Positions 1,492 through 7,503 of a DNA stretch of 64,000 nt are shown in pieces. The translations under genes and the position numbers were made by a program. The stretch is taken from contig NZ_JAOBPO010000001.1 of NCBI RefSeq assembly GCF_025574485.1, positions 565,501 to 629,500 on the forward strand. Direction: 5' to 3'. Position 1 is the first letter of the stretch. Each line of letters begins with the position of its first letter. The DNA comes from Kordiimonas aquimaris. Lineage in GTDB: Bacteria; Pseudomonadota; Alphaproteobacteria; Sphingomonadales; Kordiimonadaceae. The notes below the pieces were generated by a model. The model ran no database searches. It was given only the letters and a program-made list of their open reading frames with translations, and was not told the origin of the DNA.

Positions 1492-2547
1492 ATGGTTCAC
1501 GTGACGGATAAGGAACGTTCCCTTGAAAACTGCGATGATGCTTCTGCATTAAACGACGAAGGTGTGCCGCTGAAAAAGTCGGAGACCATCGAAATCAGGT
1601 TGCCACATAAAGACAAGCAGGCCTTTGTTCTGGCATGTAAGGCAGAGGGTAAGACAGTAAGTGCAGTCTTGCGGGGCGCCATTAATCTGCATCTTCAACA
1701 TGGACATTTTGTGTTTCCACAATCCAGCAATGCCAATAGGCGTGCTGATATGAAAGGAAGCCTAAAAATGATACTGACAGGATTTTTCGCAGGCGGGTTA
1801 ACTGTTGCAGCCGCCTTTACAGTTTTTGATGAAGCAGAAAGAGATTATGGGCCCTTCGTGAGTGCCTATTTTGCAAAGATTGATCAGGATGGTAACGGAG
1901 AAATTTCGTTGCCCGAATACATTGGTAATGTGGGTAAGGCATCCAGCGCTAGTCAGATATTACCGCAAGCAAGCGTTGGCAATTATTATTTACATAACGC
2001 TGAATTTAAAACGAATAATATGCCACTGCTTGAGAGTGACGCAGTTATTATGAGCTCTGAAAAGGCTTTCACAGTCCAGAGTTTTGACACAGTATGTCAA
2101 AGCGCAATTAATGATATTGCGATCGCACAGCATACGTATGAGCATGCGTTATTGGACTTAGATAATAATCAAGCGTTGTCGATGGAAGAATTTAGTCAAT
2201 CGCAACTACTCCCAGATATTCTGCGGATTACCGCGGAGCATAACCTCTTTGATATTGATGGTAATGGAGATGTTAGTTTTGAAGAATTCAATTCTGCATT
2301 TAGCGGTAACGCAGAAGTATTCTTTGTAGAAAATTATAGCTTCCAGCAAACTGTAAAATTACCACCTGAGTGTCATAAGGCGCTTGGTGAAGGGGCGAGA
2401 CTCTCTCTATGGAATAGTTATGATCTGAATTATGGCGCGCGTAGACAGAAAAAACATATAGAAGAACTGTTTGATAGCATCGACCTTAACGATGATAAAC
2501 GCATTGTTCTTCAGGAATTCATCAATCGAATTTTATCGAAAATATAG
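1492..2547 (+). CDS. RHH-like / single TM helix / four EF-hand protein
   Basis: This 351-residue protein has three parts. Residues 32-70 (beta strand TIEIRLP, helix, KTVS turn, second helix) look like a ribbon-helix-helix DNA-binding fold. Residues 93-112 form one hydrophobic helix after a KGSLK stretch. The rest holds four EF-hand loops at 131-142 (DQDGNGEISLPE), 222-233, 254-265 (DIDGNGDVSFEE) and 331-342; loops 1 and 3 are canonical calcium loops, 2 and 4 are weaker. The predicted topology is N-terminus in the cytoplasm and EF-hands in the periplasm. GGAG at 1487-1490 is only 1 nt from this ATG but 10 nt from GTG 1501, which may be the true start. No other gene is in the repeat-bounded segment. 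A calcium-responsive membrane regulator is an inference. Confidence 0.75.
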   Translation: MVHVTDKERSLENCDDASALNDEGVPLKKSETIEIRLPHKDKQAFVLACKAEGKTVSAVLRGAINLHLQHGHFVFPQSSNANRRADMKGSLKMILTGFFAGGLTVAAAFTVFDEAERDYGPFVSAYFAKIDQDGNGEISLPEYIGNVGKASSASQILPQASVGNYYLHNAEFKTNNMPLLESDAVIMSSEKAFTVQSFDTVCQSAINDIAIAQHTYEHALLDLDNNQALSMEEFSQSQLLPDILRITAEHNLFDIDGNGDVSFEEFNSAFSGNAEVFFVENYSFQQTVKLPPECHKALGEGARLSLWNSYDLNYGARRQKKHIEELFDSIDLNDDKRIVLQEFINRILSKI

Positions 2548-2874: not shown

Positions 2875-5667
2875 TTAGAAGTTAGTGCGCAGGATCAATC
2901 CAAATGTACGCGGCTGATTGGTGCGGAAACCAAGACGTGCTCGTCCGCCGCGTTCGCGGTCAAACGACAGGTTTGCATTTTCATCTGTCACGTTATTGAC
3001 GTAAGCAACAACTTCCCAGTTATCGCGGTAGATACCGGCACTGAGATTAAGTGTCTGATACGCATCAAGTTCAAGGTCAGCACTGGTCACATCAGTACCT
3101 GGTGCGCCGCCGAATGCCAGACCGGAAACAAAGTCACCCGCGCCAGCAGTTTGGTCACTGGGTTGCGTGAACCGGCTGCCTACATGCTGGATGTTACCGG
3201 CAATATAAGCTTCGACGCCGTTGCCAATAAACTCGACAGGAAAGCTGTAGCTACCTGTTGCAGCAATCTGGAATTGCGGCACAGTTGGTAGTCTGTTGCC
3301 ATCTTCTACACCACCAAGTACAGCGCCTGTACTGTCGAGAACAGTGGTGTCAAACTCAGCTTCAATCACACTACCTGCGATGGAAAGGTCTAACCCTTTT
3401 GTTGGTTTGGCCTTCAATTCAAACTCGACGCCTAGCGTATGTGCTTCAGGCACATTGAATGAAATCCGTGATGAACATGAACCAGCATCCAGTGTTACCT
3501 GCAGATCAGAGATGTCAGTGTAGAATGCAGCAGCATTGAATTGCACCTTGCCTGTATTAACCTTGATACCTGCTTCATAGTTGACAAGCGTTTCGTCATC
3601 ATAGTCCTGGAAACCACCAAAGATCGCCAGATCATTAGCATTACAGAGCGCTGTGTTAAGCGGGTCGTTTACACCGCCAAGCCTGAAGCCTTTGGATACT
3701 TGCGCATTGATGGACACTTCTTCGCTAACGTCGTAACGAGCTAGAATGCGCGGCGTGAAGCCATCCGACGCTGTTTCATCCACTTGATTTACAACACCGT
3801 TACCAAAGAGACCAACCTGTGTCACTGACCGTGTTTCGCTGTAATCATAATAGCGACCGCCGGCGGTAATTTGCAGCCTGTCTGTCAGGTCATACGTAAG
3901 CTCTGCGAACGCTGCATACTGCTCTAGGCTGTATGGTAGTTCCGAGAAGAACGGCGAATCTGTCGGTCCAACACCCAACGCCACAGCTTCTGATGTGCCT
4001 GCACCAAGAACAGCGTCAGTCACAGCGTCATAACCGGGTGTAGGCAGTGTTTGCTGATAAAAGCGATCTGTATCAGAATAAAAACCACCCACTAACCACT
4101 GGAATGGGCCATCACCATTGGAAGAAAAACGAACTTCCTGTGTGAACTGCTCAACTTCGGTTACGTCGCGCAGGTTTGACGGGATCAGTACTGCACTGTC
4201 AGGGTAGCCCAAATCAATCGATACACTGCCTGTCAGGGCACTAGCGTCGCGGCTGACCAGAATTTCGCGGTCTGTGTAACTGGAAACAGCCGTTAAGTCG
4301 AAGCCATCAAAGCTTGATTCAATTGTTAAATCAGCAATCAGCGTTTCATCTTCAAAGCCTTCACGTAACTGCAGGAATTGCTGGCGTTCTTCGAAGGTAA
4401 CAGCCGGGCGTGTTGTCGTGAATGGATTGGCGAAAACATTGAATATCTCCTGACGGTTAAAACCATCAGTTTCAATTTCCTGATAAATCAGGCGCGGTGT
4501 GATGGTAAGGCTTTCAGATGGTTTGAAAGCAAGGGCTATACGCCCACCTGTGCGCGTGCCAGTGTTTACGTTTTCGTCAATGGAACCGCCCTCACGGATG
4601 GCATCAATAAACCCGCCGTATTCTGTGTGGTAGGCAACGACACGCAGTGCCGCAACGTCTTCAGCCAGCACAAAGTTGGCCGCGGCTTTTACATTGCCGC
4701 CAACACTGCCACCGTCGATGGCGTTTAGTTCACCTTGCACGGAGCCTTCGAAGCCTTCAAAGTTTGGTGCGTTCGTGATGTAGCGAATGGTGCCGCCAAT
4801 TGAACCAGAACCAAACAATGTACCTTGCGGGCCGCGTAGTGTTTCAACCCTGTTAAGGTCAAAAAGGTCAAGGTCTGGTGTAAACAGTGAGAGTGAAATC
4901 ACTGACTCGTCAAGATATACACCCACCTGTTCTTTTACACCCGGTTGGTCGCGCACAATCTGGCCTGCAGATACGCCGCGGATAGACACCTGACTTTGTC
5001 CTGGGCCTAAGTTTTGTATGGTTAATCCGGCAACATTGCGTGAAAGGTCTTCCAAGTTGTTTGCACCAGAGCGCTGGATATCAAGTTGGCTTTGTGCATT
5101 GATTGAGAAAGCAACATCTTGAATAGATGATGCGCGTTTTGTTGCTGTTACAACAATTTCTTCCAAACTGTCGCTGTCGCTATTTTGTGCTTGCACTGTC
5201 GTGGCGCCGGATGCGCCAAAAACAAGTGCTGAAATACCGGCTAATAACGACCGTTTTGTTTTGCTTGTAGACACGGAGTCCTCCCGAGCTTGCTTTTGTT
5301 TCTGTTCCAAACGCGTAATAGTCACGATACCGCGTTCAGTTAGGCCGCCGGAAAACAAGGTGTCGCGCAGCATAATATCTAGCGCTTCCTGGAGAGTATA
5401 CCGACCAGAGACGGGTTTAATGCCTTTGGTGCTTGCCAATTCGTAAGGGTATAAAAGCTGTACACCGGCTTGCAGTGTAAATGCAGTTAATGCAGCGCCC
5501 AGTGTTTCTTCGGAGATGTTGAAATCATATTTTTCCGTATGGATATCGGCTTTAACGATATCTACACGGCACAACATTAATAGTATTAATACTAAATGCA
5601 GCGCCAAACGCCTCCCCAGACGCAGTCCTCCCTTATGTTTTGACTCGGTGATTAGTATGCTCCCCAT
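2875..5667 (-). CDS. TonB-dependent receptor with N-terminal STN signalling domain
   Basis: This 930-residue outer-membrane receptor has a signal peptide (LALHLVLILLMLC), an STN domain at about 45-118 (ISEETLGAALTAFTLQAG), then a second hydrophobic stretch ending in TVQAQ at about 140-160, a TonB box (EEIVVTATKR), a plug with VSIRGVSAG and ETLRGPQGTLFGSGS, and a long barrel ending in the aromatic C-terminus ILRTNF. STN receptors pass ligand occupancy to a FecR-type anti-sigma factor. The fecR- and fecI-like genes lie directly upstream on the same strand, so this is a FecA-type signalling receptor. The ligand is unknown. The inner signal-like stretch suggests that STN was joined in front of an ordinary receptor. 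GGTGA 6 nt before the ATG supports this start. Confidence 0.9.
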   Translation of the reverse strand: MGSILITESKHKGGLRLGRRLALHLVLILLMLCRVDIVKADIHTEKYDFNISEETLGAALTAFTLQAGVQLLYPYELASTKGIKPVSGRYTLQEALDIMLRDTLFSGGLTERGIVTITRLEQKQKQAREDSVSTSKTKRSLLAGISALVFGASGATTVQAQNSDSDSLEEIVVTATKRASSIQDVAFSINAQSQLDIQRSGANNLEDLSRNVAGLTIQNLGPGQSQVSIRGVSAGQIVRDQPGVKEQVGVYLDESVISLSLFTPDLDLFDLNRVETLRGPQGTLFGSGSIGGTIRYITNAPNFEGFEGSVQGELNAIDGGSVGGNVKAAANFVLAEDVAALRVVAYHTEYGGFIDAIREGGSIDENVNTGTRTGGRIALAFKPSESLTITPRLIYQEIETDGFNRQEIFNVFANPFTTTRPAVTFEERQQFLQLREGFEDETLIADLTIESSFDGFDLTAVSSYTDREILVSRDASALTGSVSIDLGYPDSAVLIPSNLRDVTEVEQFTQEVRFSSNGDGPFQWLVGGFYSDTDRFYQQTLPTPGYDAVTDAVLGAGTSEAVALGVGPTDSPFFSELPYSLEQYAAFAELTYDLTDRLQITAGGRYYDYSETRSVTQVGLFGNGVVNQVDETASDGFTPRILARYDVSEEVSINAQVSKGFRLGGVNDPLNTALCNANDLAIFGGFQDYDDETLVNYEAGIKVNTGKVQFNAAAFYTDISDLQVTLDAGSCSSRISFNVPEAHTLGVEFELKAKPTKGLDLSIAGSVIEAEFDTTVLDSTGAVLGGVEDGNRLPTVPQFQIAATGSYSFPVEFIGNGVEAYIAGNIQHVGSRFTQPSDQTAGAGDFVSGLAFGGAPGTDVTSADLELDAYQTLNLSAGIYRDNWEVVAYVNNVTDENANLSFDRERGGRARLGFRTNQPRTFGLILRTNF

Positions 5668-5684
5668 GTTTTTTCACCGGCCTT

Positions 5685-5699
5685 ACCTGTAAGACAGGT
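5685..5699. promoter_or_regulatory. Inverted repeat ahead of the TonB receptor start
   Basis: ACCTGT, 3-nt spacer, ACAGGT form a perfect inverted repeat 18-32 bp upstream of the receptor ATG, inside the 200-bp gap after the fecR-like gene. It could be an operator or a leader hairpin for separate control of the receptor. No sigma-dependent promoter is recognised with confidence. Confidence 0.4.
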
Positions 5700-5867
5700 G
5701 GGCAGTGAAAATCCTCAGTACATTTATCAACTTTCTATAAAGGCCAGCACAGAGAATAAGGAAACAAGTGTGTCCCTTGGATTGTTTTAAGCGCGGTATC
5801 GTTGCATTCACACAACAAACCAGTGCACCTTGATGCCTGAAAATAGTCTTGGGAATTGATTGGTAGG

Positions 5868-6917
5868 TTATTGCGCCAGTGACAGACGAACGAGAGATTC
5901 ATTAATGCGGTCAACGCGTACACCAAATGATGCTTCCAGAGAATCGAGCATACCTTCAACCTCTCCTACCTTGAAGTAGCCGCCAATTGGCAGTGCCTCG
6001 AGGGCCGTGTCATCAATTTCAATGGTAATATCTGTGTAACGACTGACGTCTGCCACAACAGTTGAAAGTGGTTCGCCTGCGAAAGCGATAAACCCTTCAC
6101 GCCACAAGAGCTTTCTATCTAGTACGTCAGCACTGATGCGTGACAGACTTTCCACTTCTTCTCCGAACACAGCACTTTGTCCTGCGGTCAGGGCAGCCAG
6201 GGGTATCAGCTCATCCAGAGACGCAATGTCGATTTCAATTTCATCGCTGTCATTAGATTGAGGTATGAGTGCAACAACACCTTCGGTTACGGTTACCTCC
6301 ACAGCCTCAGTGTGCAAAAACACTGTAAACGCTGTGCCAACAGCTTTAACGATTCTGCCACGCGCGCGAACTAGAAAGGGCCTTTCGGGATCATGGGCGA
6401 CTTCAAAGTGAGCCTCACCTTTCATCAGGTTTATTTCACGTTTGCTGTCGGATAGGGCGACAGTGACTTCACTATTGGTGTTCAGAAAAATTGTCGAACC
6501 GTCTGATAGAAGCAGCGTTTTTTGGCCGCCAATTTTGGTAGCGAACTGACCATTGGAGAGTAAGTCTTGCCTGGTTTCTTGCGGGCCGAAGCTTGTCCAA
6601 ACTGCAAGTGTCAATGATGCTGCGACAGCCAAGCCTATCCACCATGGCCTTCTTCTCGTTGCTGGTGAGTGGCCATCTTGGCTGGCATCGTTGTCGATAT
6701 AATTGACATCATCCAATATGTTGAGGCCGCCCCATAACGCGGCCATGCGCTCAAGGGCTTCTCTATGATGATTGCTGGTTGCCACCCAATCCTTTAGGGC
6801 ATGTTCTTCTGATTCAGACAGTTCTCCGCGAGCGTCAATGCGCGCTATCCATAGCGCAGCCTCTTCCTCAATTGTCTTGAGGTCGGGAAACAACACTATT
6901 TTCTCAGAATCACTCAT
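5868..6917 (-). CDS. FecR family anti-sigma / signal transducer
   Basis: This 349-residue inner-membrane protein has the FecR order: N-terminal DUF4880-like part at about 12-65 (EEAALWIARIDARGELSESEE, DWVATSNHHREALERM), a single membrane helix at about 92-108 (WWIGLAVAASLTLAVW), the FecR periplasmic domain at about 120-225 (LLSDGSTIFLNTNSEV, GEAHFEVAHD-RPF) and a DUF4974-like C-terminus ending in VRLSLAQ. It should hold the sigma factor in the cytoplasm and release or activate it when the receptor is occupied. It overlaps the sigma gene by 8 bp, so the two are co-translated, and precedes the receptor by 200 bp. Confidence 0.9.
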   Translation of the reverse strand: MSDSEKIVLFPDLKTIEEEAALWIARIDARGELSESEEHALKDWVATSNHHREALERMAALWGGLNILDDVNYIDNDASQDGHSPATRRRPWWIGLAVAASLTLAVWTSFGPQETRQDLLSNGQFATKIGGQKTLLLSDGSTIFLNTNSEVTVALSDSKREINLMKGEAHFEVAHDPERPFLVRARGRIVKAVGTAFTVFLHTEAVEVTVTEGVVALIPQSNDSDEIEIDIASLDELIPLAALTAGQSAVFGEEVESLSRISADVLDRKLLWREGFIAFAGEPLSTVVADVSRYTDITIEIDDTALEALPIGGYFKVGEVEGMLDSLEASFGVRVDRINESLVRLSLAQ

Positions 6918-7503
6918 CGTTTGCTCTTAACAGATTTGAAATCGCTGTGTTAGCGTCGTTTCCAGTTTTTTTGATACGACCACCAAACTCGGCTGGATCA
7001 TACCCGCGTTCTCTGAAAAATTGACTACACTGAACTAAACCGCCAGCAATATGTTTTTCCACACCACTAACAGACATGTCCAAGTGTCTTGCGATTTCCT
7101 TTACTTTCAATCCTTCTATTTTTCTTAGTATCAATACTTTACGACAGTTTGGCGAAAGCTGCGCAACAGCCTGTGAGAAAACGAACAGTTTTCTCCGACC
7201 ATCTAACTGGTCTTCTGCACTAAGCTGCTCACTATCTATTAAGACATGTGAGTTTTGCGAATCCTCAAAATATTCTGTTGTTGTGTTAGTTTTTTTCGCT
7301 AACTCATTCAACGCAGTATTTTTTGCGACCCGAAAAAGAAATGATTTGGGGTTCTGGATTTCTGATTTTGTTGAGGCTGCAAAAGTCTTGAGAAAAGTTT
7401 CCTGGACGGCATCTTCTATATCTTGTTGCTTCGAAAAAAAACGCCTTAGATATTTCTTCAACGCAACTTCATTTCGCAAGAAATTTTCCAGCAGGTCAGC
7501 CAT
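6910..7503 (-). CDS. FecI-like ECF RNA polymerase sigma factor
   Basis: This 197-residue protein has sigma region 2 at about 12-75 (KKYLRRFF, DIEDAVQETFLKTF, SFLFRVAKNTALNEL) and region 4 at about 128-180 (LSPNCRKVLILRKIEG, VKEIARHLDMSVSGVEKHI). The YLRRFFSK and VEKHI features are typical of the FecI branch of iron- and TonB-linked sigma factors. It forms one operon with the downstream fecR-like gene and probably drives the receptor gene. The start is supported by GAAAG 6 nt upstream. A large inverted repeat occupies its upstream region. Confidence 0.9.
   Translation of the reverse strand: MADLLENFLRNEVALKKYLRRFFSKQQDIEDAVQETFLKTFAASTKSEIQNPKSFLFRVAKNTALNELAKKTNTTTEYFEDSQNSHVLIDSEQLSAEDQLDGRRKLFVFSQAVAQLSPNCRKVLILRKIEGLKVKEIARHLDMSVSGVEKHIAGGLVQCSQFFRERGYDPAEFGGRIKKTGNDANTAISNLLRANDE

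Follow-up and report, generated by a model that had tools for sequence, protein, structure and literature searches.

Calcium-responsive transcription in bacteria has usually been traced to two-component systems. The ribbon-helix-helix (RHH) superfamily comprises intertwined dimers that insert a two-strand ribbon into the major groove of operators that are palindromic and usually tandem. In CadC, a cytoplasmic N-terminal DNA-binding domain is joined through a single transmembrane (TM) helix to a periplasmic sensor, and no phosphorelay is involved (PMC5430869, PMC6320335). EF-hands of the proteobacterial envelope or periplasm are known from EfhP (PMC9132961) and from Caulobacter CaBP (PMC13171946); in the text consulted no DNA-binding domain is described for either protein. 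CaBP is given there an ordinary 21-aa Sec signal peptide, and a "probable transmembrane" EF-hand protein, CCNA_02234, is listed beside it (PMC13171946).

The locus described here lies in a 64,000-nt stretch of the Kordiimonas aquimaris genome (GCF_025574485.1, NZ_JAOBPO010000001.1, 565,501-629,500, forward strand), hereafter the window. Judged from its layout and charge bias, the encoded protein resembles ToxR and CadC in having a putative cytoplasmic N-terminal DNA-binding domain, one TM helix and a periplasmic sensor, and with EfhP and CaBP it shares predicted envelope EF-hands. While ToxR and CadC use an OmpR-type winged helix, the window family combines an RHH domain with an EF-hand sensor, and its likely targets are the gene itself or an adjacent peptidase gene. 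Because RHH replaces the winged helix, the window protein would be ToxR-like in its working and not a member of the ToxR family. Sequence analysis confirmed an RHH domain at the N-terminus of the encoded protein, followed by a single TM helix and four EF-hand loops of canonical form, arranged as follows.

1492-2547, forward strand: gene for the proposed RHH-TM-EF regulator, 351 aa, ATG start, uninterrupted open reading frame
1573-1704, forward strand: RHH domain, residues 28-71 (strand ~31-37, helix A 39-51, helix B 56-70), from profile, AlphaFold2 and Foldseek
1762-1827, forward strand: TM helix, residues 91-112, N-in/C-out from charge
1882-1917, forward strand: EF-hand loop 1, residues 131-142, DQDGNGEISLPE, from Pfam and alignment
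2155-2190, forward strand: EF-hand loop 2, residues 222-233, DLDNNQALSMEE, from Pfam and alignment
2251-2286, forward strand: EF-hand loop 3, residues 254-265, DIDGNGDVSFEE, from Pfam and alignment
2482-2517, forward strand: EF-hand loop 4, residues 331-342, DLNDDKRIVLQE, from alignment
2095-2097, forward strand: Cys202, invariant among the 12 long homologues aligned, may form a disulfide with Cys294
2371-2373, forward strand: Cys294, invariant in 12 aligned long homologues

The protein contains one hydrophobic segment (residues 91-112), with a net charge of +3 on its N-terminal side and -3 on its C-terminal side. Its EF-hands score above the Pfam cut-offs (EF-hand_7, 7.5e-14; EF-hand_1, 4.5e-11), and all four 12-residue loops carry aspartate at position 1 and glutamate at position 12, both invariant or near-invariant when 12 long homologues were aligned. 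The hydrophobic segment, Pfam and the alignment thus bear out the single membrane helix and four EF-hand loops claimed in the initial annotation. The C-terminal part is likely periplasmic, a placement that fits the charge bias and the invariant cysteine pair; such invariance would be expected of a periplasmic disulfide.

The same annotation had called the N-terminus RHH-like. The window protein itself has no Pfam RHH match, missing every RHH cut-off; its relative L061, which also carries EF-hands, reaches the cut-off of RHH_9 (23.4/23.4). A profile built from 15 family members over residues 28-71 was searched against all PDB sequences and gave DinJ (9lew) as the best (E 9e-4, columns 3-43). 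This profile also matches stand-alone proteins of 50-100 aa in other Alphaproteobacteria, several of them Pfam RHH_9. Positions K, E, R, K, F, T, S and R of the profile are invariant, and so are E34 and R36 in the RHH strand. AlphaFold2 predicted an extended segment followed by helices 39-51 and 56-70, with pLDDT 93-98 over the helices; the strand came out extended and DSSP assigned it no strand pairing, as a monomer would be expected to show. When this head was compared with the PDB using Foldseek, 13 of 15 matches were RHH proteins (RelB, Arc, KacA, AtaR, ParD, omega and ORF56), with RelB superimposing at rmsd 1.4 Å and TM 0.81 (2k29) or rmsd 0.9 Å (4fxe). E-values were ~1 or worse because the head is so short (55 residues), and the full-length model returned, among the matches shown, calmodulins and other EF-hand proteins only. 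A fold other than RHH at residues 32-70 would have refuted the initial annotation; AlphaFold2 and Foldseek instead give RHH, and on profile and model we take the N-terminal domain to be established as such.

Homologues lacking the N-terminal part had been named at the outset as a possible refutation; the homologues found keep this part better than any other, making the RHH domain the best-conserved region of the family. Its dN/dS of 0-0.33 in 13 close pairs indicates that the fusion is translated and selected. These observations bear on whether the gene encodes an ordinary exported EF-hand protein that was wrongly extended, its true start being an ATG inside the reading frame, where the TM helix lies:

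1753-1770, forward strand: candidate internal start (ribosome-binding site and ATG, M93) where the TM helix begins; signal weak in the window gene (p 0.12), stronger in paralogues

In several homologues the Shine-Dalgarno sequence before this ATG exceeds that of synonymous-random sequences (Fisher p 8e-4; control Met codons p ~1), a synonymous-codon result that suggests selection. However, the upstream part is in frame, stop-free, under purifying selection and better conserved than the rest, and of the 81 homologues listed, 53 lack an ATG at that point, so that we consider misannotation of the start very improbable. A second, RHH-less product from the internal ATG is possible, and both products could coexist. 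At the TM start of L002, L004, L008, L009, L014 and L083, an internal ATG is preceded by a strong Shine-Dalgarno sequence (duplex ~-7 kcal/mol). Most of the long Kordiimonad homologues have little Shine-Dalgarno sequence at the annotated start.

A contig scan with the window protein as sole query gave no relatives; an alignment query then found 181 in a scan of one genome per species, of which 80 were kept. They come chiefly from Alphaproteobacteria, including Caulobacter, Brevundimonas, Sphingomonas, Hyphomonas and Ruegeria. Within the window's taxonomic family, 11 of 30 genomes contain the gene, and the window's own genome has two paralogues with identical layout; a search of plasmids for the family gave no match. 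Among 81 proteins, nearly all combine the RHH domain and a single TM helix with 1-5 EF loops, three (L108, L131, L151) having no EF loop by the pattern used, and the Caulobacterales members are ~110 aa long with mostly one EF-hand. The RHH-TM-EF order, which the initial annotation proposed to look for in other genomes, is conserved throughout the family. A literature search for an RHH/EF-hand membrane fusion found none, and this widespread alphaproteobacterial family is apparently undescribed. CCNA_02234 may be a relative. Tandem arrays of family genes occur in G019:C278 (L006, L014, L020, L023, L028) and G013:C17 (L009), where RHH and TM parts are nearly identical and EF-hand parts divergent (in one pair dN is 0.01 for RHH versus 0.66 for the ectodomain). 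Such like heads and unlike ectodomains suggest that gene conversion has kept the heads alike and that the sensors have diversified.

Loci had been gathered by an RHH peptide pattern, independently of any operator. Word counts of upstream regions yielded GTCCGGAC and a candidate operator, a paired TGTCCGGACA palindrome that is a new finding of this analysis. By-eye alignment of the regions upstream of short homologues gave no motif, and scans for sigma-70 promoters and terminators gave nothing above chance. Upstream of the window gene, the pair is represented by two boxes without assigned strand.

1365-1374: candidate operator box 1, TGTCCTGACA, differing from TGTCCGGACA by 1 mismatch, 127 bp upstream of the ATG
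1388-1397: candidate operator box 2, TTTCGGGACA, 2 mismatches to TGTCCGGACA, 23 bp after box 1

An exact TGTCCGGACA box was present in the 260 bp before 35/101 family genes and in none of the mononucleotide shuffles, and one-mismatch boxes preceded 9 more genes (0.6 expected); many loci are closely related, so these counts are not independent events. A second box follows at +22/+23 in 17 of the 44 box-bearing genes. For genes of the 4-EF type, the window's included, the pair is spaced by 21-23 bp and lies upstream of the gene itself, and some distant members have box variants such as TGTCATGACA. Across the 3.8 Mb of the window's genome, a relaxed 22/23-bp pair is found twice, before the window gene and before the long paralogue, and is hardly present in relatives without a family gene. 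The exact pair was found in 13/16 carrier genomes, one copy each save one genome with two, against a background of 2/385 genomes. Exact single boxes number one or two per Kordiimonad genome, are rarer than the reversed control, and precede an HExxH gene in the window's genome and two relatives. One locus (L211, G703:C63:1007-1035) has an extra exact pair that adjoins neither a family gene nor a signal peptidase recognised by the motif test, which may be a further target or chance. Literature on TGTCCGGACA is mostly p53 work, with no bacterial use among the matches listed.

The box follows the family although the gene behind it appears to vary by type: the family gene itself, signal peptidase I or a metallopeptidase-like gene. 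All 10 Kordiimonad short (2-EF) paralogues with enough flank are convergent to a secreted HExxH metallopeptidase-like gene, and each of these 10 genes has two upstream boxes 31-32 bp apart (two of the genomes are near copies of each other). The 2-EF genes themselves lack a box, which indicates that autoregulation is not universal. The HExxH family (L185:290-1396, L197:2963-4096 and equivalents) has no Pfam or NCBIfam name, and its genes often overlap the 2-EF paralogue at the stop. The neighbouring gene in Caulobacterales and some Sphingomonas encodes signal peptidase I (Pfam Peptidase_S26, 2.4e-48), is convergent or co-directional and represents a second or further genomic copy; with this 1-EF type the boxes are 21-22 bp apart upstream of the peptidase gene, ~45-140 bp from its putative start. 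Signal peptidase I is within reach at 41/80 loci, and in 39 of these 41 a box (0-1 mismatch) precedes it; in 30 of the remaining 39 loci the box precedes the family gene (background windows, 2.6%). The window locus has no peptidase neighbour, being flanked by an SDR gene and a TonB receptor gene.

The occurrence of the paired palindrome before family genes or neighbouring peptidase genes lends independent support to DNA binding by the family, and the genomic linkage of box and family is the main evidence that this is its binding box. Palindromic tandem operators are what RHH proteins use, and the TGTCCGGACA boxes are paired at 21-23 or 31-32 bp, spacings near two and three helical turns that would fit RHH dimers on one face of the DNA. 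On this sequence comparison, the pair is probably the family's DNA target. Were the RHH domain only to dimerise an envelope calcium buffer or sensor, another regulator would have to read the boxes; this is improbable, given that the boxes are near-confined to family loci even where the target gene differs, and that the RHH strand retains its invariant E34 and R36. RelB/DinJ antitoxins are the nearest solved relatives, and with other RHH antitoxins and repressors they share the strand-helix-helix fold, tandem palindromic boxes and autoregulation. The window family differs in lacking a toxin partner, in its membrane tether and in its C-terminal, predicted calcium-binding ectodomain. No toxin-like gene lies beside the window gene and the relatives' neighbours are peptidases, and we hold it extremely unlikely that the protein is a membrane-anchored type II antitoxin.

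Architecture, RHH fold, canonical loops, and operator conservation and placement are demonstrated by these comparisons, and we think it quite probable that the protein is a membrane-tethered, ToxR-like one-component regulator, in which an RHH head is combined with an EF-hand sensor in the periplasm, and that it controls itself or its cognate peptidase. The RHH domain, presumably as a dimer, would bind the paired TGTCCGGACA boxes, spaced by two helical turns (self, signal peptidase) or three (metallopeptidase), and one TM helix would link this head to periplasmic EF-hands sensing Ca2+ or another divalent ion. For the window's 4-EF type the target would be its own promoter (boxes 1365-1374 and 1388-1397), and for the sister types the neighbouring signal peptidase I or secreted HExxH metallopeptidase-like gene. 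The signal may be passed by Ca2+-driven pairing of EF-hands across the dimer, which would explain the single-EF members; these can pair EF-hands only across a dimer, suggesting that Ca2+ stabilises the dimer or alters TM packing. Since most RHH proteins repress, repression is the likelier direction.

The regulator could also be a substrate-like sensor, cleaved behind its TM helix by the very enzyme under its control (signal peptidase I in Caulobacterales); the uncut form would then report low peptidase capacity, and Ca2+ bound to the adjacent EF-hand would tune cleavage. A signal-peptidase-like motif, P[STAV][LIVF]A, ends the TM helix in 41/41 signal-peptidase-linked members versus 11/39 others, a difference confounded by phylogeny, and the peptidase gene next to them is an extra copy from the S26 family that carries the operator. 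The window TM helix, however, has no clear motif and its locus no peptidase neighbour, and we regard this reading as plausible but rather unlikely. More speculative, and doubtful at present, is a novel class of self-contained circuits from envelope to DNA: a tethered RHH repressor with periplasmic EF-hands would gauge Ca2+ and also, through being cleaved as a substrate, how active its target peptidase is, and would set the synthesis of a dedicated signal peptidase I or secreted metallopeptidase to match.

If the tethered-regulator model is true, one chain carries an EF-hand signal straight to DNA, and a second signal peptidase I has a specific regulator; to our knowledge, control of such an enzyme is undescribed in Alphaproteobacteria. 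Because the family is widespread, also in genera used in the laboratory such as Caulobacter, and has a defined operator and targets, the model is readily testable. Elsewhere in the window, a TonB-dependent receptor with an N-terminal extension was found at 2875-7503 on the reverse strand (Pfam-checked). Upstream of it lie FecR-like and ECF sigma factor-like open reading frames, a set that resembles cell-surface signalling.
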